From contig NZ_SJEX01000034.1 in the NCBI RefSeq assembly GCF_005930495.1, positions 1-46,738 of the forward strand: 46,738 nucleotides of DNA, read 5' to 3'. Under the pieces are notes generated by a model that was not told where the DNA came from, did no database searches, and saw only the letters and a program-made list of their open reading frames with translations. The translations under genes and the position numbers were made by a program. Source of the stretch: Modestobacter excelsi. Lineage in GTDB: Bacteria > Actinomycetota > Actinomycetes > Mycobacteriales > Geodermatophilaceae. Below are positions 15,404 through 46,738 of the stretch, one piece after another; the first letter of the stretch is position 1, and each line of letters starts with the position of its first letter.

Positions 15404-16942
15404 ATGGACGACTACATCCTGGAGATGCGCTCCATCACCAAGACGTTCCCCGGCGTGAAGGCGCTGTCGGACGTGTCACTCGCGGTGCGGCGCGGCGACG
15501 TCCACGCCATCTGCGGTGAGAACGGCGCCGGGAAGTCGACGCTGATGAAGGTCCTGTCCGGCGTCTACCCGGCCGGCACCTACGACGGCGAGATCGTCTA
15601 CGACGGCGAGGTGCAGAAGTTCGGCGGCATCCGCGACAGCGAGCACAAGGGCATCGTGATCATCCACCAGGAGCTCGCGCTGGTGCCCTACCTGTCCATC
15701 GCGGAGAACCTGTTCCTGGGCAACGAGCGCAAGGGCCGCAGCGGCCTGATCGACTGGAACAAGGCCAACGCCGACGCCGCCGCCCTGCTGCACGAGGTCG
15801 GTCTCGTGGAGAACCCGGTCACCCCGGTCGGCACCCTCGGCGTGGGCAAGCAGCAGCTGGTCGAGATCGCCAAGGCCATCTCCAAGGACGTGAAGCTGCT
15901 GATCCTCGACGAGCCCACCGCCGCGCTGAACGACAACGACTCCGCGCACCTGCTGGACCTGCTGCGGCGGCTCCGCGACCGGGGCATCACCTCGATCATC
16001 ATCTCGCACAAGCTGAACGAGATCGTCGCGATCGCCCAGCACACCACGATCATCCGGGACGGGAAGACCGTCGAGACGCTGGACATGAGCGCCCCGGACG
16101 TCGACACCGACCGGATCATCCGCGGGATGGTCGGCCGCGACCTGGAGTCCTACTACCCCGACCGCGAGTCGCACCCCGGCGAGGAGGTGCTGCGCGTGGA
16201 GGGCTGGACGGTCAAGCACCCCACCCAGGACCGGCTCGTCGTCGACCACGCCGACTTCGACGTCCGCGCCGGTGAGGTCATCGGCATCGCCGGCCTCATG
16301 GGCGCTGGGCGCACCGAGCTGGCGATGAGCATCTTCGGCCGTTCCTACGGCCGGTTCGTCGAGGGCCGGATCTTCGTGCACGGCAACGAGGTGAAGGCCC
16401 GCAGCGTCTCCGAGGCCATCGACCACGGCATCGCCTACGCCACCGAGGACCGCAAGAAGTACGGCCTGAATCTCATCGAGGACATCCGGCGCAACGTCTC
16501 CGCGGCCGCGTTGAGCAAGCTCGCCACCCGGGGCTGGGTCAACGGCAACGAGGAGACCAAGGTCGCCGAGGACAGCCGGCGGGACATGAACATCAAGGCG
16601 CCGAGCGTCTCCTCGATCGTCGGCAAGCTCTCGGGCGGCAACCAGCAGAAGGTCGTGCTGTCCAAGTGGCTGTTCACCGACCCGGACGTGCTGATCCTCG
16701 ACGAGCCGACCCGCGGCATCGACGTCGGGGCCAAGTACGAGATCTACACGATCATCAACAAGCTGGTGGCGGCCGGCAAGGCCGTCATCGTCATCTCGTC
16801 CGAGCTGCCTGAGCTGCTCGGCATCTGTGACCGCATCTACACGCTCTCGGCCGGGCGCATCACCGGCGAGCAGCCGGTTCGTGAGGCCACGCAGGAGAGC
16901 CTCATGAAGCTGATGACCAAGGAGAGGGAGCTCGCAGCATGA
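15404..16942 (+). CDS. mmsA: Sugar ABC transporter ATPase, two nucleotide-binding domains
   Basis: A 512-residue ATPase with two fused nucleotide-binding domains, as in XylG/AraG/MmsA sugar importers. Domain 1 (about 5-235): Walker A 'GENGAGKST' and Walker B '[11 protein letters not shown]', but a weak signature '[15 protein letters not shown]'. Domain 2 (about 265-505): degenerate Walker A '[10 protein letters not shown]', signature '[15 protein letters not shown]', Walker B '[12 protein letters not shown]'. Asymmetric degeneration of this sort is normal in the family. It powers sugar uptake with the permease that overlaps its stop by 4 bp. The start ATG at 15404 has a moderate AAGGA-type site about 12 bases upstream. 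Confidence 0.93.
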
Positions 16943-18207
16943 CCAGGACCGTGGGGCCCCAGCCCGGGGAGACCGAGACCAACCAGACCCCGGCGGAGGT
17001 CGCCGACGCGCAGGCCAAGGCCACCAAGGTCGGGACCAGCGACATCCGCGAGCTGCTCACCCGCAACCTGCGGCAGAGCGGCATCTACGTCGCCTTCTTC
17101 GTCGTGGTGGTGCTCTTCGCCATCCTGACCGGCGGCACGTCGCTCAGCCCGGGCAACATCACCAACATCGTCCTGCAGTACTCCTACGTGCTGGTGCTGG
17201 CCATCGGCATGGTCATCGTGATCATCGCCGGCCACATCGACCTGTCGGTCGGCTCGGTCGTCGCGCTGACCGGTGCCACGTCCGCGGTGCTGGTCATCCG
17301 GCACGGCGCCCCGTGGTGGGTCGGCATGCTCGCCGCCATCGCCGTCGGACTCCTGGTCGGCGTCTGGCAGGGCTTCTGGGTCGCCTACGTCGGGATCCCG
17401 GCGTTCATCGTGACCCTGGCCGGCATGCTCATCTTCCGTGGGCTGACCCTGCAGGTGCTGGACAACATCTCGCTGTCGCCCTTCACCCCGCAGTACCAGA
17501 AGGTGTCCAGCGGCTTCCTCAACGGCCTGCTCGGTGGCAACGGGTACGACGCCTTCACCCTGCTCATCGGCGCGCTCGCGGTGGCCGGGTACGCGGTCAG
17601 CGGCTTCCGCACCCGGGTGGCGCGGATCCGCTACAAGCAGCCGGTCGAGAGCTTCCCGCTCTTCGTCGCCCGGGTGGTCGTCGTCGCCGCCGTGGTCATG
17701 TACTTCGCCTGGCAGCTGGCCCACGCCCGCGGCCTGCCGATCGTGCTGATCATCCTGGGCGTGCTGATCACCGTCTACGGCATGATCACCAAGCGCTCGG
17801 TCTTCGGGCGTCAGGTGTACGCCATCGGCGGCAACCTGGCGGCGGCGACGCTGTCCGGTGTCAAGGTCCGGATGGTCAACTTCTGGATCTTCGTCAACAT
17901 GGGCTTCCTGGCCGCGGTCGCGGGGATCATCTACTCCTCGCGGTCCAACGGTGCACAGCCGGCCGCCGGGCAGAACTTCGAGCTCGACGCCATCGCGGCG
18001 GCCTTCATCGGTGGCGCCGCCGTCACCGGCGGTGTCGGCACGGTGGCCGGCGCAATGGTCGGTGGTCTGCTCGTCGCGGTCCTGAGCAACGGCATGCAGC
18101 TCCAGGGCGTGGACCAGTCGATCCAGTCGGTCATCAAGGGACTCATCCTGCTCCTCGCCGTCGCCTTCGACGTCTACAACAAGCGGCGGGCCGGCTCCTC
18201 CCGCTGA
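16939..18207 (+). CDS. mmsB: Sugar ABC transporter permease (MmsB/GguB-like)
   Basis: A 422-residue inner-membrane permease of the BPD_transp_2 (ribose/xylose/arabinose) family. After a polar N-terminus of about 45 residues there are roughly ten hydrophobic segments. '[20 protein letters not shown]' (about 96-115) and '[20 protein letters not shown]' (about 302-321) are typical blocks; '[22 protein letters not shown]' leads to the last helices. ATG 16939 overlaps the ATPase stop (ATGA), so translation is coupled. Last gene of the importer operon; a 9-bp perfect hairpin follows 21 bp after the stop. Confidence 0.93.
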
Positions 18208-18228
18208 CGGTCCGCAGGACCACCGACG

Positions 18229-18252
18229 GGGGGCGGCAATGAGGCCGCCCCC
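18229..18252. terminator. GC hairpin between permease and LacI gene
   Basis: Perfect 9-bp stem (18229-18237 GGGGGCGGC with 18244-18252) and a 6-base loop. It sits 21 bp after the permease stop and ends one base before an ATG at 18253. It probably ends or attenuates the importer transcript. It also argues against the ATG at 18253 as the LacI start. Confidence 0.6.
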
Positions 18253-18267
18253 ATGAAGGAGGCGACC

Positions 18268-19287
18268 GTGCTGCCCGAGGGGGCGCCGCGAGCGTTGGGC
18301 ATGTCGGACGTCGCGGCTCGGGCCGGCGTCTCGCACCAGACGGTGTCCCGGGTGGTCAACGGCCACCCGAACGTCGCACCGACCACCAGGGAACGGGTCC
18401 TCCGGGCCATCGCCGAGCTGGGCTACCGGCCCAACGCGGCCGCCCGGGCGCTGGTCACCGGGTCGTCGCGGACGATCGGTCTGGTCACGTCGCACATCAA
18501 CCAGTACGGGCCGGCGCAGACCCTGCTCGGGCTGGAGCAGGCCGCCCGGGCGGCGGGGTACTCGCTGAGCGTCGCGATCCTCGACGACGACAGCGAGCGG
18601 GCGATGCGCGAGGCCGTCGACCGGTTCGTCGCCCAGTCGGTCGACGCGGTGGTGGCGCTGTCCACCTACGGCCAGGCGGTCGACGCGCTGCGCCGGTTCA
18701 CCGCCCCGGTGCCGCTGATCGCGGTCCAGGTGGGCCGCGGTGAGCAGCACCCGACCGTCTGGGTCGACCAGGAGCTGGGTGCCGCACTGGCGGTCCGGCA
18801 CCTGCTCGACCTCGGGCACCGCACCGTCCACCACGTCACCGGCCCGGTGGACTCGCTCGAGGCGCGCGGCCGGGTGCGTGGCTGGCGACGCGAGCTGATC
18901 GGGGCCGGGGCGCCGGTGCCCGAGCCGCTCGAGGGCGACTGGATGGCCTCGGCGGGGCACGCCGCCGGCCGCCGCCTCGCCGAGCTCCGCCGGCAGGGCG
19001 AGGACGTCACCGCGGTCTTCTGCGCCAACGACCAGATGGCCCTCGGGCTGCTGAACGCGCTGACCGAGGAAGGCGTCTCGGTGCCGGGTGACATCAGCGT
19101 CGTCGGCTTCGACGACGTCCCGGAGGCCGCGTACTACTCCCCGCCGCTCACCACGGTCCGGCAGGACTTCGCCGAGCTGGGCCGGCGCGGGGTCCAGCTC
19201 GTGCTGTGCCGGCTGCACGGCCAGGACCTGCAGCCCGAGCCCGTGGTGCCCCAGCTGATCGTCCGACGCTCCACCGGCCCGGTTTGA
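18268..19287 (+). CDS. LacI-family regulator of the arabinose module
   Basis: A 339-residue LacI/GalR transcription factor. N-terminal helix-turn-helix 'MSDVAARAGVSHQTVSRVVNG' with hinge region 'RPNAAARALVTG' (about 11-66), then a periplasmic-binding-protein-like effector domain ('SRTIGLVTSHINQYGP', 'VFCANDQMALGLLNAL', 'ISVVGFDDVPEAAYYSPPLTTV'). It lies between the importer operon and the kinase-araD-araA operon. Matching CG-centred operators overlap both promoters, so it probably represses both and is released by L-arabinose or a derivative. The GTG at 18268 is preferred over ATG 18253 because AAGGAGG ends 5 bases before it. The -35 of the next operon overlaps its stop codon. Confidence 0.9.
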   Translation: MLPEGAPRALGMSDVAARAGVSHQTVSRVVNGHPNVAPTTRERVLRAIAELGYRPNAAARALVTGSSRTIGLVTSHINQYGPAQTLLGLEQAARAAGYSLSVAILDDDSERAMREAVDRFVAQSVDAVVALSTYGQAVDALRRFTAPVPLIAVQVGRGEQHPTVWVDQELGAALAVRHLLDLGHRTVHHVTGPVDSLEARGRVRGWRRELIGAGAPVPEPLEGDWMASAGHAAGRRLAELRRQGEDVTAVFCANDQMALGLLNALTEEGVSVPGDISVVGFDDVPEAAYYSPPLTTVRQDFAELGRRGVQLVLCRLHGQDLQPEPVVPQLIVRRSTGPV

Positions 19288-19312
19288 CCACTGCTGTTGT
19301 TAACGCTAACAA
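19284..19312 (+). promoter_or_regulatory. Promoter of the araBDA-type operon with LacI-type operator
   Basis: TTGACC at 19284-19289 is a -35 that overlaps the regulator's TGA stop. TAACAA at 19307-19312 (17-bp spacer) is a -10. The operator TGTTAACGCTAACA (19298-19311; six of seven pairs) covers the spacer end and the -10, as at 13989-14002. Same site, same position relative to the promoter, next to the LacI-type gene: strong evidence for one regulon. Confidence 0.75.
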
Positions 19313-19393
19313 TCATCACTCCCGCCATGTCCTCCGGTCGACCGGACCGCTGGGGCCAGCCCCTCGGTGGTGGGCGGGGAAGGAGCTCCTGAC

Positions 19394-21049
19394 ATGACGA
19401 CGGATGCCGGCGCAGTGATCAGCTCGGGTCGCACGGCCCTGGGGATCGAGCTCGGATCGACCCGGATCAAGGCGGTGCTGATCGGGCCCGACCACGCCCC
19501 GCTCGCCGTCGGCAGCCACGACTGGGAGAACCAGTTCGTGGACCGGCTGTGGACCTACTCGCTGGACGCCGTCTGGTCGGGGGTGCAGCAGAGCGTCGCG
19601 GCCCTGGCCGAGGACGTGCAGCGTCGCCACGGTGTCGAGCTCGCCGAGGTCGGCGCGCTCGGCGTGTCCGCGATGATGCACGGCTACCTCGCGTTCGACG
19701 CCGACGGCGAGCTGCTGACGCCGTTCCGCACCTGGCGCAACACGAACACCGGGCGGGCCGCCGAGCGGCTCAGCGCGGAGTTCGGCTGCAACATCCCGCA
19801 CCGGTGGAGCGTCGCGCACCTCTACCAGGCGGTGCTGGACCGCGAGGAGCACGTCGGCCGGCTGGACCACCTGACGACCCTGGCCGGCTACGTGCACTGG
19901 CAGCTCACCGGCGAGAAGGTCCTCGGCATCGGGGACGCCAGCGGCATGTTCCCGATCGCCGCCGGCACCGGCGGGTACGACACCGCGATGCTGGCCCGGT
20001 TCGACCAGCTGGCCACCGAGGCCGGCGTCGAGCTCGACCTTGCCGCGCTGCTGCCGGCCGTCGCCGTCGCCGGTGATCCGGCCGGCACGCTGACCGAGGC
20101 CGGCGCGCGGCTGCTGGACCCGGCCGGGCGGCTGCGCCCCGGCGTCCCGCTGTGCCCCCCCGAGGGCGACGCGGGCACCGGCATGGTCGCCACCAACTCG
20201 GTCGCCCCGCGCACCGGCAACGTCTCCGCCGGGACGTCGATCTTCGCCATGGTCGTGCTCGAGCGGGAGCTCTCCCGGGCGCACCGGGAGCTGGACCTGG
20301 TGACCACCCCGGCCGGCGACCCGGTGGCGATGGTGCACTGCAACAACGGGGCCAGCGAGCTGGACGCCTGGGCCGGGCTGTTCGCCGAGTTCGCCCGGGC
20401 GCTGGGGGTCGAGGTCGGCACGTCGCAGGTCTTCCAGACCCTGTTCACCGCCGCGCTCGGCGGTGCCGGCGACGGCGGCGGGATGCTCGCCTACAACTAC
20501 CTCTCCGGGGAGCCGATCACCGAGTTCGAGGAGGGTCGGCCGCTGTTCCTGCGGTCCCCGGACAGCCGGCTCGACCTCGGCAGCTTCATGCGGACGCACC
20601 TGTTCTCGTCCCTGGCCACGCTCCGGATCGGCATGGACGTCCTGCAGAAGAGCGAGGGCGTGCGGCTGGACCGGATGTTCGCGCACGGGGGCCTGTTCAA
20701 GACCGAGGGTGTGGCGCAGCGCTTCCTGGCCGCCGCGATCGACACCCCGGTCTCCGTCGGCGACGTCGCGGCGGAGGGCGGTGCGTGGGGGATCGCCGTC
20801 CTGGCTGCCTTCGCCGCCGGGCGCTCGCCGGAGCAGGGCCTGGCGGACTACCTGGACGGCACGGTCTTCACCGGCACGAGCCTGAAGACCACCGAGCCCG
20901 ACCCCACCGACGTCGCGGGCTTCGACGCGTTCATGGAGCGCTGGGTCGCCGCGCTCCCGGTCGAGCGGGCCGCCGTGGAGCACGTGGGGATCGGTTCCCG
21001 GCGAACCGACACGACCACAACCGACGTGACCGAGGAGCAGCCGGCATGA
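19394..21049 (+). CDS. araB: FGGY-family kinase, probable L-ribulokinase
   Basis: A 551-residue sugar kinase of the FGGY family (ASKHA fold). N-terminal phosphate-1 motif '[16 protein letters not shown]' (about 16-31), '[17 protein letters not shown]' near 93, and the C-terminal '[14 protein letters not shown]' nucleotide region. In sequence it is nearer to xylulokinase-like members than to classical E. coli AraB, but its operon partners are ribulose-5-phosphate epimerase and arabinose isomerase, so phosphorylation of L-ribulose is the obvious role. ATG 19394 has AAGGAG 8 bases upstream. It overlaps araD by 4 bp. First gene of the arabinose catabolic operon behind the LacI-type operator. Confidence 0.85.
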
Positions 21050-21729
21050 CCGCCACCACGACCCGCACCGAGCAGGGCACCCACCGCGAGCAGCGCGAGC
21101 ACGTCGCGGCGCTGCACGCCCACCTGACCCGCTACGAGCTGGTCACCTGGACCTCGGGCAACGTGTCCGAGCGGGTGCCCGGCGAGGACCTGTTCGTCAT
21201 CAAGGGCAGCGGGGTCGAGTACGACCAGCTGACCTGGGAGGGCATCACCGTCTGCGACCTGGACGGCAACGCGGTCGACGGCGTCCGGGCGCCCTCCAGC
21301 GACACCGCCGCGCACGCCTACGTCTACCGCAACATGCCCGAGGTCAACGGGCAGGTGCACACGCACAGCACCTACGCCGCGGCCTGGGCGGCCCGGCACG
21401 AGGAGATCCCCTGCGTGCTCACGGCGATGGCCGACGAGTTCGGCGGGCCGATCCCGGTGGGGCCGTTCGCCCTGATCGGTGACGACTCCATCGGCCAGGG
21501 CATCGTCGGGACGCTCCAGGGGCACCGCTCCCCGGCCGTGCTGATGAAGAACCACGGCGTCTTCACCATCGGGCCCTCGGCCAAGGCCGCGGTCAAGGCC
21601 GCCGTCATGACCGAGGACGTCGCCCGGACAGTGCACCTGTCCCGCCAGCTGGGCGAGCCCGTCCCCATCGCGCCGGCCGACATCGACTCGCTGTACGCGC
21701 GTTACCAGAACGTCTACGGACAACGTTGA
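21046..21729 (+). CDS. araD: L-ribulose-5-phosphate 4-epimerase
   Basis: A 227-residue class II aldolase-fold enzyme that converts L-ribulose 5-phosphate to D-xylulose 5-phosphate, feeding the pentose phosphate pathway. Phosphate-binding '[10 protein letters not shown]' (about 35-44) and '[11 protein letters not shown]', the '[12 protein letters not shown]' motif, zinc ligands in '[11 protein letters not shown]' (His-Thr-His, about 104-106), and the late '[11 protein letters not shown]' His. Length matches the family (about 230). ATG 21046 overlaps the kinase stop; araA starts 17 bp after its stop. Confidence 0.95.
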
Positions 21730-21746
21730 GCACTGAGGAGCAGCAC

Positions 21747-23249
21747 GTGGCATTCGATGGTCTTGAGATCTGGTTCCTCACCGGCAGCCAGGGGCTGTAC
21801 GGCGAGGAGACCCTCCAGCAGGTCGCCGAGCAGTCCCAGCGGGTCGCGGCCACGCTCGACGGCGCCGCGGACGTGCCGGTGCGGGTGGTGTGGAAGCCGG
21901 TGCTCACCGACGCCGGGGCGATCCGCCGCATCATGGGCGAGGCCAACGAGGACCCGGCCTGCCTGGGCGTGATCACCTGGATGCACACCTTCTCCCCGGC
22001 GAAGATGTGGATCTCCGGGATCGACGCGCTGCGCAAGCCGCTGCTGCACCTGCACACCCAGGCCGACGCCGCCCTCCCGTGGGCGACGATCGACATGGAC
22101 TTCATGAACCTCAACCAGGCTGCGCACGGCGACCGGGAGCACGGGTTCATCCTCACCCGGCTGCGCACGCCCCGGACCACGGTCGCCGGGCACGCCGCCA
22201 ACCCGCGGGTGCAGGCCCGCGTCGGGTCCTGGGCACGCGCCGCCGCCGGTGCCGCGGCCGCCCGCGGGCTGAAGCTGGCCCGGTTCGGCGACAACATGCG
22301 GGACGTCGCGGTGACCGAGGGCGACAAGGTCGAGGCCGAGATCCGCTTCGGCATGTCGGTGAACACCTGGGGGGTCAACGACCTCGTCGCCGTCGTCGAC
22401 CAGGTGCCCGACGCCGAGGTGGACGTGGTGGTGGCCGAGTACGGCGACCTCTACGAGATCGAGGCCGACCTCCGGCCGGGCGGCGAGCGGCACGAGAGCG
22501 TCCGCTACCAGGCCCGGATCGAGGTGGCGCTGCGGCAGTTCCTCACCGACGGCGGGTTCGGCGCGTTCACCACGAACTTCGAGGACCTCGGCGGGCTGCG
22601 CCAGCTGCCCGGTCTCGCCGTCCAGCGGCTGATGGCCGACGGGTACGGCTTCGGCGGTGAGGGCGACTGGAAGACGTCGGCGCTGCTGCACGTGCTCAAG
22701 ACGGCCGCCCAGGGCCTGCCGGGCGGCACCTCCTTCATGGAGGACTACACCTACGACCTGGCCTCGGACACCCCGAAGATCCTCGGGGCGCACATGCTCG
22801 AGGTGTGCCCGTCGATCGCCGGGGAGAAGCCCCGCCTCGAGGTGCACCCGCTGGGCATCGGCGGCCGCGAGGACCCGGCCCGCCTGGTCTTCGACGCCGC
22901 GCCCGATGCGGGCATCACGCTCGGCTGGTGCGACCTGGGCGACCGGTTCCGCTGGGTCTCCAACGTGATCGACGTGGTCGAGCCGTCCGAGCCGCTGCCG
23001 AACCTGCCGGTCGCCCGCGCGGTGTGGGAGCCCCGGCCGGACTTCGAGACGGCGACCGAGGGCTGGCTCACCGCCGGCGGCCCGCACCACACGGTGCTGT
23101 CCACCCAGCTCGGCGCGGAGGAGCTCACCGACCTGGCCGAGGTCTTCGACACCGAGCTGGTGCTCATCGACGACGACACCACCCGGCGCAGCCTGGCCAA
23201 GGAGCTTCGCTGGAGCGCGGCCTACCACCGCCTCGCCCAGCGCCTCTGA
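21747..23249 (+). CDS. araA: L-arabinose isomerase
   Basis: A 500-residue manganese-dependent isomerase converting L-arabinose to L-ribulose. The opening '[20 protein letters not shown]' is diagnostic, and '[15 protein letters not shown]' and 'FMEDYTYDL' carry active-site residues. With the GTG at 21747 (GAGGAG 6 bases upstream) the protein is exactly the usual 500 residues. A TTG overlapping the araD stop at 21726 would add seven residues and lacks a good ribosome binding site. Last gene of the operon; a 60-bp hairpin repeat begins one base after the stop. Confidence 0.96.
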
Positions 23250-39879: not shown

Positions 39880-41355
39880 TCAGCGGGGGTGGCGCCGCCC
39901 CTGCTTGACCCGGTACATCGCCTCGTCGGCGGCGGTCAGCAGGGTCTCGGGGGTGGCGCCGGGCGCGGACAGCGCGAAGCCGACGCTGATGCCCACGGCG
40001 TGCATCGTCGCCGGGCCCGAGCGCAGCGGCTCGGACAGCGCGTCGGTGACCCGGGCGGCCAGCACCTCGGCCGCGACCGGCCCGTCGACGTCCGGGCACA
40101 CCAGCACGAACTCGTCGCCACCGATGCGGGCGACGGTGTCGCCGGGACGCACGGCCGCGGAGAGCCGCCCGGCGGCCTCGACCAGGACGGCGTCCCCGGC
40201 GGAGTGCCCCCAGCCGTCGTTGACGGCCTTGAAGCCGTCCAGGTCGCAGTAGAGGACGGCGAGCGGGCTGCCGCTGCGGGCCGCCCCCGCCAGGCCCAGC
40301 TGCAGGCGGTCCACCAGCAGGCTGCGGTTCGGCAGGCCGGTGAGCGGGTCGTGCAGCGCGGCGGTGCGCAGCTGGGCCTCCAGCTCCCGCTGGGCGGTGA
40401 CGTCGACCATGGTGACCACCGCGCCGAGCAGCCGGCCCGCGGGGTCGCGCACCGCGTCACCGTTGCAGGACACCAGCCGGGACGGCAGCCCGTCCGGAGC
40501 GATGGTGATCGGCACGTCCTCCAGCCGGCCCTCGCGGAGCAGCCGGATCAGCGGCACCTGGTCGGGCGGCAGCGGGTCGCCGTCGACGGTCCGCAGGTCG
40601 TAGCGCTGGGGCAGGTCCTGCGGCGTGAGCGTCGGGTCGCCGTCGCTGCCGTGCCAGAGCCGGCTGACCCGGTTGAAGGCGGTGATCCGGCCCTCGGCGT
40701 CCACCGCGGCGACCGCCACGGGCAGCGAGTCCAGCAGCGCGGTGTCGAAGGCGCGCGCGGCGCTGAGCTCGGCGTGGGCCGCGGCCAGCTCGGCCCGCGC
40801 GGCCTCGCTCGCCCGGGCCAGCTCGGCGGTCGCCTGGCTGTCCCGGTGCCGCTGCAGCAGCGCGCACACGACCGCGCCGAGGTCCGCCAGCCGGTCCAGC
40901 TGGTCCTGGTCCAGGGCGTGCACCTCCCGGGACTGGACGCACAGGGTGCCCACGACCACGCCGTCGAGGGGGAGCGGCACCATCGCGTAGCCGCGCACCC
41001 GGTCCCGGCGGCCGTCGACCCAGGGGCTGGCCGCGAAGCGGGGGTCGGCGCGCAGGTCGGAGGAGGCGAAGACCCCGCCGACCCGCAGCGCCCGGTCGCA
41101 CAGCGACTCGGCCCGTGGGGTCACCAGCTGCGGGAACCCCAGGGTCGCCAGCTGGAACTGCGCGGTGTCGTCGAGCAGGTTGACGGTCGCCATCGGCATG
41201 CCCGTGACGGCAGCGGCCACCCGCACGACCGCCTCGAGCTCGGCGTCGGTCGCCGGCGCGGAGCGCAGGTCGGGGAGGACCGGCGGGGCCGGTTCCGGAG
41301 TGCAGACGGAGGCCCGCGGCGAACTCGTCCGTACCCGGTCTGTCGGCGCCGTCAT
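39880..41355 (-). CDS. GAF-PAS-GGDEF diguanylate cyclase
   Basis: A 491-residue cytoplasmic diguanylate cyclase. GAF domain about 38-175 ('RVAAAVTGMPMATVNLLDDT' near 46), a helical linker about 175-205, PAS domain about 205-330, and GGDEF domain about 335-485. The active site is intact: GGDEF at 40108-40122, preceded by the RXXD inhibitory site (RPGD, five residues before), so product inhibition is expected. 'HDPLTGLPNRSLLVDRLQL' begins the cyclase domain. It senses an unknown small molecule or redox cue. It is followed by a degenerate GGDEF protein that may read its product. The start is the ATG at 41355. Confidence 0.92.
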   Translation of the reverse strand: MTAPTDRVRTSSPRASVCTPEPAPPVLPDLRSAPATDAELEAVVRVAAAVTGMPMATVNLLDDTAQFQLATLGFPQLVTPRAESLCDRALRVGGVFASSDLRADPRFAASPWVDGRRDRVRGYAMVPLPLDGVVVGTLCVQSREVHALDQDQLDRLADLGAVVCALLQRHRDSQATAELARASEAARAELAAAHAELSAARAFDTALLDSLPVAVAAVDAEGRITAFNRVSRLWHGSDGDPTLTPQDLPQRYDLRTVDGDPLPPDQVPLIRLLREGRLEDVPITIAPDGLPSRLVSCNGDAVRDPAGRLLGAVVTMVDVTAQRELEAQLRTAALHDPLTGLPNRSLLVDRLQLGLAGAARSGSPLAVLYCDLDGFKAVNDGWGHSAGDAVLVEAAGRLSAAVRPGDTVARIGGDEFVLVCPDVDGPVAAEVLAARVTDALSEPLRSGPATMHAVGISVGFALSAPGATPETLLTAADEAMYRVKQGRRHPR

Positions 41356-42164: not shown

Positions 42165-42270
42165 ACTGCAGGGCGGAAGGTCTCGCCCACCCGCGGCGGC
42201 GCGGGCCCGCTGACCGGGCGCGCGTGCGCGCCAGCATGTCGACCAGCGGTCGGGGGGCTACTCCCCTTCT
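42165..42270 (-). ncRNA. yybP-ykoY manganese riboswitch
   Basis: On the minus strand the leader of the GDT1-like gene contains both signature parts of the yybP-ykoY class: GGGGAGTAGC (42266-42257) and GGGCGAGACCTTCC (42188-42175), with GTCGACATGCTGG and GC-rich stems between them. This class binds manganese at the junction of two coaxial legs and switches on manganese exporters of the MntP or GDT1 type. The first motif overlaps the end of larC: its TAG is the larC stop codon. The expression platform (about 42165-42095) is not obvious; a GAGATCTC palindrome next to the GTG could block translation. Confidence 0.85.
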
Positions 42271-43463
42271 CGGTCCAGGAGCCTAGCCGATGCCCCCGGA
42301 TGGGCCCGGTGCGCCGCGGCCGTGGCGGCGCGCAGCACCTCCTTGACCGGCAGCTGCAGCTCCCCGGCCAGGGCCACGACGTCCTCGAACTCGACGCTGA
42401 CGTTGACCACCCGGCCGGCCGACCGGGCCACCTTCACCCCCACCCGGCCGCCGAGCACCGGGACGGTGTCCTGCACGCGGTCGAGGGCGACCTTCTGCAC
42501 CGGCTGCACCCGCATCCCGATGGTCGAGGTCGCCGCGACCACCACGTCGGCGACGGCGGAGCGGACGGCGGGCCGGCACAGCACCGACAGGGTGTGCGCG
42601 GGCCGGCCCTTCTTCATCAGGATCGGGGTCAGCCAGGCGTCCGACGCCCCGGCGGCCAGCAGGTCGGCCAGCACGCCCGGCCACAACCGCGGGTCCAGGT
42701 CGTCGACGTTGGTCTCCAGCAGCAGCCCGGCCGCGGGTGGGTCCTCTCCCGGGTCGCCGAGCACCAGCCGGACGACGTTGGGGTGCTCCACCGGGTCCCG
42801 GCCGCCCGCACCGCTGCCGACCCGCCGGACCCGCATGGCGGGCAGCGTCGTCCACTCCTGGACGTGCGCGGCCAGCAGTGCGGCGCCGGTGGGCGTGCAC
42901 GTCTCCGCGGGCACGGGCCCGGCGACGACCGGCAGGCCGGCCAGCAGCTCCAGGACGGCGGGCCCGGGCACCGGGACGACGCCGTGCGCGCCGCGCGCCG
43001 ACCCGCTGCCCAGCGCGACCGGGGAGGCGGCCAGCCGGTCCAGCGCGAGGGAGGCGAACCCGGCGACGACGCCCACCACGTCGGCGAGGGCGTCCAGCGC
43101 GCCGACCTCGTGGAAGTGCACCTCGTCGGCCGGCACCCGGTGCACCCGCCCCTCGGCGACCGCGAGCCGCTCGAACACCGCCAGCGCGCCGTCCCGGACG
43201 ACGGGGTCGAGGGCCGCGGCGGCGAGGATGCCGCGCACGTCGGCCCAGGTGCGGTGCACGTCGCTGGGCGGCGCGTGCACGTGCACCCGGGTGGCCCCGA
43301 GACCGTGCCGGGTGACCGGTTCGGGGGTCAGGGTCACCGGCTCGACCGGCAGCGCGGCGACCGCGGCGGTGAGCACCGCCAGCGGCACCCCGGCGTCGAC
43401 CAGCGCGCCGAGCAGCATGTCCCCGCTGGCCCCGGCGGAGAGGTCCAGCCACCCGATCGTCAC
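42258..43463 (-). CDS. larC: LarC, nickel insertion protein for nickel-pincer cofactor
   Basis: A 401-residue LarC (pyridinium-3,5-bisthiocarboxylate mononucleotide nickel chelatase), which inserts nickel into the cofactor of lactate racemase LarA. It has the family start 'MTIGWLDLSAGASGDMLLGA', metal-site histidines in 'VHFHEVGALDALADVVG' (about 116-132), 'TCTPTGAALLAAHV', 'LLETNVDDLDPRLWPGVL' and 'ILMKKGRPAHTLSVL'. It is encoded in one piece (no frameshift between N- and C-halves as in some lactobacilli). LarA and LarE are not visible; a LarB-like domain is encoded 600 bp away. Its last codons and stop lie inside a manganese riboswitch. GTG 43463 is only 17 bp from the divergent methyltransferase start. 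Confidence 0.92.
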   Translation of the reverse strand: MTIGWLDLSAGASGDMLLGALVDAGVPLAVLTAAVAALPVEPVTLTPEPVTRHGLGATRVHVHAPPSDVHRTWADVRGILAAAALDPVVRDGALAVFERLAVAEGRVHRVPADEVHFHEVGALDALADVVGVVAGFASLALDRLAASPVALGSGSARGAHGVVPVPGPAVLELLAGLPVVAGPVPAETCTPTGAALLAAHVQEWTTLPAMRVRRVGSGAGGRDPVEHPNVVRLVLGDPGEDPPAAGLLLETNVDDLDPRLWPGVLADLLAAGASDAWLTPILMKKGRPAHTLSVLCRPAVRSAVADVVVAATSTIGMRVQPVQKVALDRVQDTVPVLGGRVGVKVARSAGRVVNVSVEFEDVVALAGELQLPVKEVLRAATAAAHRAHPGASARLLDREGE

Positions 43464-43480: not shown

Positions 43481-44083
43481 ATGCGGGAGTTCGACGAACC
43501 GGGGGCGTGGGGCAGGTACAACGCGACGCAACGGGACCGGCCGCCGCGCCCGCTCGCCCTGACCCTGCTGGCGCACGCCGGGGAGGGCGCGGGCCGGCTC
43601 GCGCTCGACCTGGGGTCCGGCGCCGGGGTGGAGTCGGCGCTGCTGCTCGACCACGGCTGGCGGGTGCTCGCGGTAGACGGCGACCCGGCGGCCGCGGACC
43701 TGCTCCGGGAGCGGCTGCCGCCGGAGCAGGCGGAGCGGCTGACGACCCGGACCACCGCCTTCGCCGACCTCGACGCGCTGCCGGCGGTCGACCTGGTGCA
43801 CGCGGCCTGGTCGCTGCCCTACGCCGGGGTGCACCTGGAACGGCTGTGGGAGCTGCTGCTGTCCGCCCTCGTCCCGGGCGGCTGGCTGGCCTGCCACCTG
43901 TTCGGCACCCGGGCGACGGCGGACGCCGCGGACGTGGCCCGGCTCAGCGCCGCCGACGTCGACCGGTTCGTCGACCGGCTGGACGTCGTCCACCGCGAGG
44001 AGCAGGAGGTCGACGGGACGGCGTCGGGCCGGCCGGTGCACTGGCACGTCCACTCGGTGGTGGGACGCCGCCGGCCGGACTAG
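43481..44083 (+). CDS. Small class I SAM-dependent methyltransferase
   Basis: A 200-residue class I methyltransferase similar in size to TehB-like enzymes. Motif I 'LALDLGSGAGVESALLL' (about 42-58), the acidic residue in 'VLAVDGDPAAADLL' (about 65-78), 'FADLDALPAVDLVHAAWSLP' (motif II zone) and 'ALVPGGWLACHLFG'. Substrate unknown. It lies between larC and the LarB-like fusion gene but on the opposite strand, so a link to them is not established. The ATG at 43481 lacks a ribosome binding site and looks leaderless. Its stop overlaps the end of the converging LarB-like gene by 4 bp. Confidence 0.88.
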   Translation: MREFDEPGAWGRYNATQRDRPPRPLALTLLAHAGEGAGRLALDLGSGAGVESALLLDHGWRVLAVDGDPAAADLLRERLPPEQAERLTTRTTAFADLDALPAVDLVHAAWSLPYAGVHLERLWELLLSALVPGGWLACHLFGTRATADAADVARLSAADVDRFVDRLDVVHREEQEVDGTASGRPVHWHVHSVVGRRRPD

Positions 44084-46738
44084 TGCCGGGCGGTGCGGCG
44101 GGCGATGCGGGCGGCGAAGACGCCGGCCGACCAGCCGTTGTCGATGTTGCTGACGACCACGCCGGGCGCGGCCGAGTTCAGCATGGTGAGCAGCGCGCTG
44201 AACCCGCCGAAGGAGCCGGCGCCCTGGCCGGCCGACGTCGGGACGGCGACCACCGGCACCTCGGTCAGGCCGCTGACCACGCTGGCCAGCGCCGCGTCGA
44301 GGCCGGCGACGACGACCAGGCAGTCGACGTCGGTGAGCAGCGAGCGGTCGGTCAGCAGCGGACGGATCCGGCTGCCGCCGACGTCGTCCACCCGGACGAC
44401 GTCGGTGCCGGTGACCCGGGCGACGAAGGCGGCCTCCGCGGCGATCGGGGTGTCCCCGCTGCTCGCGCACAGCACGCCGACCCGGCCGACCGGCTCGGGC
44501 ACCGGCCCGACGGCGGCGGACATCGCGGCGTGGTCCATGGTCGTGTAGGCGTCGTGCTCGCTGGCCAGGGCCACCAGGGTGTCCGCGCCGGCCCGGACGA
44601 CGACCGCCGGGTGGTCGGGGTGGTCGCGGCGCGCCTCGCGGACCAGCGCCAGCACCTGCTCGGTGCTCCGGCCGGTGCCCCAGATGACGTCCGGGCCGGT
44701 CGCCAGGACCGGCTCCCGGGTCACCGGGGCCGGGGCGGCCGGCGGGGAGACCGCGGCGGCCACCCGGGGCGCGGGCTCCGGAGCCACCGGCTCGATCCGC
44801 CGGCCGGCCGGGCGTGCCGCCGGGCCGCCGAAGAGCTCGTCGAGCGGCGTCCGCGGCCGGACCGGGGCCTCCTCGGCGTCCGGGGCGGCACCCGGGGCGA
44901 CGGCGATGGGCGCCCCGGCCGGCTCGACGAGCAGAGGGGCGAACCCGCCGGCCGCGTCGGCCGGGTCGGCCGCCCGGTCGTCGGTCAGGTCGTCCAGCGG
45001 GGAGGTGCTCATGGTCTCCATGATGACGGCCGGGGGAGGGGCGTCCGGGACCCTCGTCGGTGGCGGGGCCACCGTGTCGAGCGGTTCGGCCTCCAGCGTC
45101 GCCACCTCCCGGGTCTGGGTGACCCCGGACAGCCGGACCACGCGGTCCCGGCCGGCCCGCTTGGCGTCGTAGAGGACGCCGTCGGCGGCGGCGAACAGGG
45201 TGCGCCGGTCGTCGCCGCGGGCGGCCTGGGCGATGCCGACGCTGATCCGCACCGGCACCTCGACCCCGAGCGCCGACCAGTCGTGCGCCGCGATCGAGCG
45301 CCGGATCCGCTCCATCGCCCGTTCGGCCTGCTCGGCGGTCGTCTCGGGCAGCAGGATGACGAACTCGTCGCCGGCCCAGCGGCAGACCTCGTCGGTGTCC
45401 CGGCAGCCGTCGACCAGCAGCTGGCCGACCGCGCGCAGGACGGCGTCGCCACCGGGGTGCCCGGCGGCGTCGTTGATCGCCTTGAACCGGTCGATGTCGA
45501 CGACGGCCAGGGCGGGCACCGCCCCGGAGGAGAGCAGCCCGTCCAGCCGCGCCTCGGCGTACCGGCGGTTGGGCAGGTGGGTGAGCGCGTCCTCGTAGGC
45601 CTGCCGGCGCAGCTGCCCGGCGGCCCGCTCGGTCTCCAGCAGGCTCTTGCGCCGGCCGAAGAGCTCGACCCAGCGGGTCCGCCGCTCGTCGACCCGGTCC
45701 AGCTCGTCGGCCAGGTAGGCCTGCAGGTAGGGCAGCGCGCGGGCGGCGTCGTCGAGCTCGGCGTGCAGCGTGCACAGCTCGCGCAGCGCGGCCCGGCGCA
45801 GCCGGGGCAGGCCGTGCTCGGTGGCGAGGGCCAGCGCCGACGCGAGGTGGTCGTCGGCGGCGCGGGGTTCGCCGGAGCGGCGCAGCGCCCGGCCCAGCCC
45901 GAGCTCGGCGGAGGACAGCAGCGCCCGGTCCGCGGACGCCGCGGCCGCACCGACGACACCGCGCAGCAGGGCCGTGGCAGCGGCGTGCTCACCGCCGCCC
46001 ACCAGCGCCCAGCCGCGGACCACCTGCGCGTCGAGCACCGCCGGGTCGCCGGCCGGCAGCTGGTCCAGCGCCCGTTCGGCGAGTGCCCGCGCCTGGCCGA
46101 AGTGCGGCGCGGCGGCGTCGACGCTGCCGTCGTCCAGCAGGCTCTCGCCCACCTCGGTGCACAGCGCGGCCAGCCGGGTGGCCGCCTCGGCGGCGAGCAC
46201 GGTCGCGGCCTGCCGCTCGACCTCGCCGGCCCGGTCGCCGGGACGGTCGGCCATCGACGCGGCGGCCTCGGCGGCGCGGGACTGGTAGTCCAGGGCGAGC
46301 GGCATGAGCTCGAGGTCGGCGAGCACCGCGGCCAGCGAGCTGAGCGTGTGCACCAGCAGCGGGGTGACGGGCAGGGCGGGGTCCAGCAGGCTGGCCGACT
46401 CGACCGCCTCGTCCATCGCGGCGTCGACGCGCCGGGAGAGCAGTTCGATGCGGGCGTGCCGGACCAGGCCGGCGGCGCGCTGCAGGTCGTCGTCCTGGGC
46501 GTCGAAGGCGGCCCGGGCGGAACGGACCAGGGCGATCGCCAGCGCGGCGTGGGTCGCGGACTCCGAGCGGCTGTCGCGGTCCAGCGGCTCGGGCGGGATC
46601 GCGGCGTCGCGGCCCCCGACGTGCAGGTCCAGCGGACCGTCCTGCTCCGGGCCGCCCTCGACCAGCGGCTCACCGAGCAGCGAGTAGCCGGCCAGCCGGA
46701 GCCGGCGGACGAGCAGCTCGGCGCGCAGCGTGTCGGCC
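44080..46738 (-). CDS. TPR-like/GGDEF protein fused to a LarB-like domain, 5' end outside window
   Basis: One uninterrupted frame of 886 codons plus stop, open at the right edge. From the N-terminal side: TPR-like helical repeats (46738 to about 45680), a coiled link, a GGDEF domain ('YEDALTHLPNRRYAEARLDG' on) with AGDEF at 45361-45375 and an RXXD inhibitory site (RDTD, 45391-45402), a Pro/Ala-rich linker of about 150 residues, then an AIR-carboxylase-like LarB domain: 'IWGTGRSTEQVLALVREARR', 'VLCASSGDTPIAAEAAFVAR', 'VPVVAVPTSAGQGAGSFGG', 'VVSNIDNGWSAGVFAARIAR'. LarB makes the nickel-pincer precursor using a conserved Cys in 'NSCAPG'; here it reads 'NSAAPG' (Ala codon 44170-44172). The LarB-like part could also start internally (ATG 45012, GGAG just upstream), but no stop separates it from the cyclase. 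Confidence 0.85.
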   Translation of the reverse strand, partial: ADTLRAELLVRRLRLAGYSLLGEPLVEGGPEQDGPLDLHVGGRDAAIPPEPLDRDSRSESATHAALAIALVRSARAAFDAQDDDLQRAAGLVRHARIELLSRRVDAAMDEAVESASLLDPALPVTPLLVHTLSSLAAVLADLELMPLALDYQSRAAEAAASMADRPGDRAGEVERQAATVLAAEAATRLAALCTEVGESLLDDGSVDAAAPHFGQARALAERALDQLPAGDPAVLDAQVVRGWALVGGGEHAAATALLRGVVGAAAASADRALLSSAELGLGRALRRSGEPRAADDHLASALALATEHGLPRLRRAALRELCTLHAELDDAARALPYLQAYLADELDRVDERRTRWVELFGRRKSLLETERAAGQLRRQAYEDALTHLPNRRYAEARLDGLLSSGAVPALAVVDIDRFKAINDAAGHPGGDAVLRAVGQLLVDGCRDTDEVCRWAGDEFVILLPETTAEQAERAMERIRRSIAAHDWSALGVEVPVRISVGIAQAARGDDRRTLFAAADGVLYDAKRAGRDRVVRLSGVTQTREVATLEAEPLDTVAPPPTRVPDAPPPAVIMETMSTSPLDDLTDDRAADPADAAGGFAPLLVEPAGAPIAVAPGAAPDAEEAPVRPRTPLDELFGGPAARPAGRRIEPVAPEPAPRVAAAVSPPAAPAPVTREPVLATGPDVIWGTGRSTEQVLALVREARRDHPDHPAVVVRAGADTLVALASEHDAYTTMDHAAMSAAVGPVPEPVGRVGVLCASSGDTPIAAEAAFVARVTGTDVVRVDDVGGSRIRPLLTDRSLLTDVDCLVVVAGLDAALASVVSGLTEVPVVAVPTSAGQGAGSFGGFSALLTMLNSAAPGVVVSNIDNGWSAGVFAARIARRTARH

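Follow-up and report, generated by a model that had tools for sequence, protein, structure and literature searches.

A LarB-derived domain lacking the LarB catalytic residues is joined to a predicted diguanylate cyclase in the Geodermatophilaceae

Why would a diguanylate cyclase carry at its C-terminus a domain that resembles an enzyme of cofactor synthesis? The question is raised by contig NZ_SJEX01000034.1 of Modestobacter excelsi (assembly GCF_005930495.1), all 46,738 nucleotides of which make up the window analyzed here. On the minus strand of this contig, a frame without stop codons extends from the edge of the contig as far as a TAG and encodes, in order, a TPR-like region, a GGDEF domain, a linker, and a domain resembling LarB of the nickel-pincer nucleotide (NPN) cofactor pathway (Table 1). 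The original prediction that the TPR-like/GGDEF protein and the LarB-type domain form one in-frame fusion is borne out by the 885-residue open frame, and by related genomes in which the same combination is free of stops. That prediction offered two readings of the product, either a signaling protein with a nucleotide-sensing domain or a LarB enzyme attached to a regulatory protein; the evidence favors the former, although the ligand remains putative. Judged from sequence comparison, it is very probable that a non-catalytic domain derived from LarB regulates a diguanylate cyclase.

The domain is clearly homologous to LarB. Its match to the NCBIfam LarB model (NF033503) covers profile positions 12–208 of 209, with a score under the equivalog cut-off of 175 bits, and it aligns with residues 49–243 of LarB from Lactiplantibacillus (PDB 7mj0). 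LarB and PurE belong to a common superfamily, and the Pfam AIRC model (PF00731, PurE/AIR carboxylase) matches residues 753–880 of the visible protein at 37.4 bits, above the gathering cut-off of 30. However, the PurE model TIGR01162 reaches only 25.8 bits against a cut-off of 149.6, and the domain is therefore not PurE.

The residues on which LarB chemistry depends have been replaced. The catalytic cysteine of LarB, which we take to be residue 221 (in agreement with the sole invariant cysteine of the alignment), reportedly forms a cysteinyl-pyridine intermediate, to go by the title of a 2021 paper from Rankin and colleagues. It is kept in 34/34 aligned standalone LarBs and in none of the 102 fused copies, where the position holds Ala (80), Ser (10), Thr (6), Gly (4), or Pro (2). 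Ser127, the residue that differs between chains 7mj0 and 8soq and presumably one with a role in LarB, is present in 33 of 34 standalone LarBs and is likewise missing from every fused copy (Gly 50, Ala 46, Pro 2, Val 2, gap 2); no paper on LarB S127A was found, and the search on the LarB octamer yielded no structural detail. Among 27 LarB loci from outside the family, the cysteine was seen in 23, and the search pattern was unmatched in the other four. The losses extend well beyond these two positions: 69 columns are invariant among standalone LarBs, of which 32 are retained and 17 lost (columns 57, 79, 126–127, 154–156, 158–159, 181, 202, 204–206, 221, and 234–235) in at least 90% of fused copies, with the remaining 20 mixed. 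His158 is retained in 8% of fused copies and Tyr204 in none, and recurrent replacements include G156R (91/102), H158R (80/102), and Y204Q (81/102). Retained positions include the VPTS string at 198–201 and Asp231 (each 102/102), Asp128 (99/101), Asp151 (at least 90%), and an acidic residue at 180 (Asp 94, Glu 7, Gly 1). The fused domain thus looks like a LarB-derived pseudoenzyme; the label "LarB" given to it originally holds as a statement of homology and derivation but not of a plain LarB, since the catalytic cysteine is gone.

The fused-type domain is no longer tied to the NPN pathway. LarE was scored at its curated cut-off, weaker matches to the model occurring in all 112 family genomes and in control genomes; at this threshold it tracks the standalone LarB and not the fused copy, with both LarE and standalone LarB present in 63 of the 102 fused-type genomes, neither in 37, LarB only in two, and LarE only in none. 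The two LarB-only genomes are G011, which is 70% complete and whose standalone LarB call is a partial match at a contig edge, and G016, which has a partial LarE match (5e-19). LarC is matched wherever a standalone LarB accompanies the fused type (65/65) and in 9 of the 37 genomes lacking one; the LarC-absent set across the family comprises 30 genomes, 20 of them named and ten obtained as the complement of the 82 with a match. In 28 of the 102 fused-type genomes, including the single-contig G009 and G065, neither a standalone LarB nor LarC nor LarA is matched and LarE does not reach its cut-off, and the GGDEF-LarB frame is nevertheless uninterrupted in 27 of these 28 (shifted in G069). Standalone LarBs were counted from matches per genome; 18 of the 65 such copies were read, all with the cysteine. 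The genome of the window is itself among those with a separate LarB, which keeps its cysteine and lies beside larE on another contig (C174).

Two further observations concern the pathway itself. Of the 65 fused genomes that have a standalone LarB, 32 lack a LarA (Lar_N) match and may therefore produce the NPN cofactor for use by a different protein; the same puzzle is described for about 15% of genomes in the excerpted text of PMC11796402. In addition, five genomes without LarE at cut-off or a standalone LarB (G024, G033, G035, G037, and G040) have a far weaker larC match (E 1e-35 to 1e-46), a pattern suggestive of a gene decaying once its pathway had been lost.

Within the Geodermatophilaceae, the fusion is widespread and largely intact. 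A LarB-type match was found in 111 of 112 genomes and the fused type in 102, all of which were read. Nine genomes have only another, standalone LarB (genera g6, g7, and g8); eight of these were read, the ninth (G091) being assigned from an unread match at 43% identity. The last genome, G103, is the only one without any LarB match and has the cyclase at 78% identity. GGDEF and LarB domains lie in a single stop-free frame in 91 of the 102 fused-type genomes; of the other 11, eight have contigs that end before the GGDEF domain, two carry a frameshifted linker (G007 and G069), and the last, G054, is interrupted by a TAG immediately ahead of the GGDEF domain. Among named records, 73 of 79 loci have the stop-free GGDEF-LarB frame and the remaining six are at contig edges; the carriers (Modestobacter, Geodermatophilus, Blastococcus, Klenkia, Goekera, and Trujillonella) all belong to the Geodermatophilaceae. 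An ordinary pair of separate GGDEF and LarB genes with an intervening stop, which the original prediction had named as evidence against a fusion, is not seen at any of the 94 loci whose sequence extends to the GGDEF domain, and the frameshift near the linker that it had also raised is absent from the 91 open genomes and present in the two just named. A stop or frame error between the parts was accordingly rejected as a general explanation. Single TGA codons flagged in G098, G099, G100, G105, G106, and G111 were considered as interruptions and rejected as well, being the natural C-terminal stop after the residues IARR.

Outside the family, none of 27 LarB loci read has a fused GGDEF domain, as judged with a GGDEF profile that found its positive controls; these loci were chosen as nearest relatives or for their long open frames, and two offer little upstream DNA (L210, 884 bases; L302, 1387 bases). 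LarB matches occur in 141 of 397 genomes of the order; those listed from outside the family do not exceed 60% identity, their open frames are mostly short, and among the order matches listed, all open frames of at least 400 residues were read except that of G248, other outside matches being judged by frame length. At the level of the phylum, LarB scores above cut-off in 231 of 396 genomes, and open frames among the matches listed are mostly shorter than 400 residues. Because no outside locus read has a GGDEF domain, the fusion belongs, within what was searched, to the Geodermatophilaceae. One record titled UNVERIFIED_ORG Bacillus sp. AZ43 (SPQJ01000021.1, L256) contains a fused-type LarB domain; its organism name is probably wrong.

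In its degree of constraint, the domain resembles an active protein and differs from the adjacent linker. The median ratio of nonsynonymous to synonymous substitution rates (dN/dS) within genera is 0.227 for the LarB-derived domain in pairs of NPN-positive genomes (500 pairs) and 0.255 in pairs of NPN-negative genomes (86 pairs). These values are near that of standalone larB (0.187, 52 pairs) and below that of the linker (0.596, 794 pairs), which indicates constraint; the median for larC is 0.243 (253 pairs). Corresponding medians for NPN-positive, NPN-negative, and mixed pairs are 0.142, 0.089, and 0.226 for the GGDEF domain (including one foreign row, G030, whose pairs exceed 1) and 0.246, 0.247, and 0.293 for the TPR-like part. 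Because these are simple Nei–Gojobori counts over non-independent pairs (dS 0.1–1.5) in very GC-rich DNA, only the comparison between regions is to be trusted.

A tree of 75 sequences shows a single apparent origin of the fused LarB domain, with standalone LarBs of the larB-larC type as its neighbors. The tree comprised 40 of the 102 fused copies (at most seven per genus, with rows under 190 residues dropped), 34 standalone LarBs, and the Lactiplantibacillus fragment. The 40 fused LarBs form one clade with support 100/100, and the stem of this clade measures 1.16 changes per column. This clade is united with standalone LarBs of g7, g8, and two neighboring families by a branch with support 80/86 (95/94 for the next branch out), and these nearest standalone LarBs adjoin larC; the standalone LarB of the window's genome sits on a different branch. 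We infer as the simplest history that larB was captured by a neighboring cyclase gene, with larC left downstream.

The cyclase part of the fusion looks active. The original prediction held that this part keeps an AGDEF motif and an RxxD inhibitory site, and both were found fixed, together with the catalytic and metal residues (D-x-D, F-K, N-D, G-H, G-D, and A-G-D-E), in 93/93 GGDEF domains of the fused gene; only the last residue of AGDEF alternates (Phe in 89, Tyr in 4). The row for G030 was left out of this set because the fused gene is there cut by the contig end and the GGDEF domain in the row is that of another gene. An excerpt of PMC3974145 describes an AGDEF cyclase of Vibrio cholerae, VCA0965, which makes cyclic di-GMP (c-di-GMP) in vitro; the fusion shares the AGDEF motif and RxxD site with cyclases of this kind and conserves the catalytic motif residues, but differs in its C-terminal LarB-derived domain and in that its cyclase activity is predicted. 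At least one protein of the family is predicted to read the signal, since the c-di-GMP receptor RsiG is reported from 16/16 Geodermatophilaceae species in the excerpted text of PMC8325347; the literature found for Geodermatophilaceae together with diguanylate cyclases concerns RsiG.

What might the C-terminal domain do for such a cyclase? Diguanylate cyclases carry many kinds of input domain. A cyclase with a regulatory domain is of a known kind; to our knowledge, a dead enzyme derived from LarB is new in that role, and searches for literature linking LarB, AIR carboxylase, or lactate racemase with GGDEF or diguanylate proteins found none, LarB-GGDEF matches being judged by title and term counts. 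A more specific proposal, to which we give about even chances, is that the LarB-derived pseudoenzyme serves as the regulatory input domain of the Geodermatophilaceae cyclase by binding a nucleotide-type ligand. The domain would no longer make the precursor of the NPN cofactor but would still bind a nucleotide-type ligand in its old pocket, whether nicotinic acid adenine dinucleotide (NaAD), nicotinamide adenine dinucleotide (NAD), or another; ligand binding, LarB-type oligomerization, or both would alter the pairing of GGDEF domains and set the output of c-di-GMP. Nucleotide binding is putative and is suggested by the retention of the VPTS loop, Asp128, Asp151, Asp231, and the acidic residue at 180 in a domain from which the catalytic residues have gone. 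The LarB reaction, as given in excerpts of PMC11796402 and PMC9283937, is the carboxylation of NaAD with release of adenosine monophosphate, and NaAD, according to the excerpted text of PMC12611868, is a precursor of NAD; as such, it should be available in cells without the NPN pathway. This availability, with the retained polar strings, favors ligand gating. That the domain has kept its affinity for NaAD or NAD while losing the chemistry, and so makes c-di-GMP responsive to the state of NAD biosynthesis throughout the family, is a speculative extension that is rather unlikely as it stands.

Several observations weigh against the reading of the domain as a ligand-gated regulatory input. The linker frameshifts of G007 and G069 separate the GGDEF and LarB halves, and in G103, which has no LarB elsewhere, the cyclase frame meets a stop inside the linker with 13 bases of the contig remaining. 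Constraint on the domain is not uniform: dN/dS is higher in mixed pairs of NPN-positive and NPN-negative genomes (0.354, 354 pairs), and much diverged copies, at 55–58% identity to the window's domain, occur in G027, G041, G042, and G107. The active-site motif is AGDEF, with Ala as its first letter, and not GG(D/E)EF. Additionally, the predicted state of the pocket is read from the alignment.

The alternative that survives best is a scaffold, in which the domain binds no ligand and its oligomerizing LarB/PurE-type fold keeps several GGDEF domains in one assembly. LarB is an oligomer and diguanylate cyclases work as dimers; the catalytic residues are gone and many structural Gly, Val, and Ala columns are retained. 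A scaffold fits nearly as well as ligand gating. We regard it as possible, if somewhat unlikely, in that the polar VPTS string, Asp231, and Asp128 are as fixed as the structural columns, which seems to exceed the needs of a mere scaffold, a point that is suggestive only. A new catalytic activity requiring neither Cys221 nor Ser127 is improbable: the coordinated replacements at 156, 158, and 204 could mark a new active site, and purifying selection would be in keeping with one, but residues 204, 221, 229, and 234 vary among the fused copies, unlike those of a conserved active site. Very improbable is the production of two separate proteins, whether by initiation within the linker or because a stop was lost to sequencing error. 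The window does have an in-frame ATG at 45010–45012, preceded by a Shine–Dalgarno-like sequence and with a second ATG just upstream, and two genomes have the linker frameshifts noted above; however, besides the general openness of the frame, an in-frame ATG is found in only 18 of 92 linkers, such that initiation at 45012, which had been put forward originally, is not a conserved feature. Any start codon with a Shine–Dalgarno-like sequence is found in 33 of 92 linkers, and those of G107 and G109 have no ATG, GTG, or TTG at all. Least probable of all is a functional LarB attached to a c-di-GMP regulator, for although larC often lies just downstream and homology to LarB is plain, this second reading of the original prediction is contradicted by the absence of Cys221 and Ser127 equivalents from every fused copy, by the separate cysteine-bearing LarB of the window's own genome and the association of LarE with such copies, and by the persistence of the fused domain where no NPN genes were detected.

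Features of the fused gene and of its surroundings are collected in Table 1. As the window is the entire contig, the N-terminus and start of the fused gene lie off it. A block reading ALVPPG with a GTG codon, 50–63 residues further upstream, is conserved in 16/16 relatives examined; judged from these relatives, at least about 50 residues appear to be missing from the visible protein, and the GTG in this block is a candidate start. The N-terminal region has no Pfam match, and no Pfam TPR model matches it at E 0.001; "TPR-like" is a label given by readers of the sequence. Within the otherwise variable linker, the short string GFAPLLVEP is conserved and is possibly a docking segment; a second string, PLDxLFG, is present in several linkers.

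Table 1. Coordinates of the fused gene, its parts, and neighboring genes (window positions unless a locus is named; aa, residues of the visible protein).
Feature	Position	Strand	Evidence or remark
Fused gene: TPR-like + GGDEF + linker + LarB-derived putative pseudoenzyme	44080..46737	-	Open frame, 885 aa visible
N-terminal TPR-like region, aa 1-370	45628..46737	-	Aligns in fused relatives, 67.5-94.6% identity
GGDEF domain, aa 380-532	45142..45600	-	PF00990, 130.7 bits (cut-off 23.8)
RDTD, RxxD inhibitory-site motif, aa 446-449	45391..45402	-	R and last D fixed in 93/93 relatives
AGDEF active-site motif, aa 455-459	45361..45375	-	A, G, D, E fixed in 93/93 relatives
Pro/Ala-rich linker, 140 residues, aa 541-680	44698..45117	-	Length varies among relatives
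Short linker motif GFAPLLVEP	44920..44946	-	Pattern GF[AGT]xL[LVM] in 87/92 linkers
LarB-derived putative pseudoenzyme domain, aa 682-880	44098..44694	-	NF033503, 165 bits; 7mj0 (chain E), E-value 3e-33
Ser127-position codon GGG (Gly), aa 761	44455..44457	-	Alignment to 7mj0
Cys221-position codon GCC (Ala), aa 856	44170..44172	-	Alignment to 7mj0
Small methyltransferase-domain gene, convergent, between fusion and larC	43481..44083	+	PF08242, PF08241, PF13649
larC, nickel insertase of the NPN pathway, a neighbor outside the fused protein	42258..43463	-	TIGR00299 190 bits, NF052512 130 bits, PF01969 424 bits
IMPDH/GMP-reductase-type gene	L211 8534-9976; L214 8805-10229	-	Purine metabolism near a cyclase that uses guanosine triphosphate

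The small methyltransferase-domain gene occupies the equivalent position in G003 and G008, as seen by tblastn. Directly upstream of the fusion and on the same strand, a second TPR-like/GGDEF gene is present in 18/18 fused loci with enough upstream DNA (e.g., L071 5885–7651, minus strand). The GGDEF domain of this paralog is 48–55% identical to that of the fusion; the four copies read have both AGDEF and RxxD and end in a short C-terminal tail without a LarB domain. In two genera (G003 and G107), the distance from this cyclase pair to the upstream IMPDH/GMP-reductase-type gene, which includes CBS domains, is about 4 kb. Elsewhere in the window, a further GGDEF protein with GAF and PAS domains is encoded at 39880–41355 (minus strand), about 2.7 kb downstream of the fusion, and by eye, a run on the plus strand at 15404–23249 comprises a sugar ABC transporter, a LacI-type regulator, a kinase, and an arabinose-isomerase-like gene.

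These data suggest that a dead metabolic enzyme has been turned into a control domain: an enzyme of cofactor synthesis appears to have been captured once, to have lost its catalytic residues, and to have been kept in 102 of 112 genomes of the family, 28 of them without a detected cofactor pathway. Annotating the fused domain as LarB would wrongly predict synthesis of the NPN cofactor. If the domain does sense a pyridine dinucleotide, it would provide the Geodermatophilaceae with a direct line from NAD metabolism to c-di-GMP.

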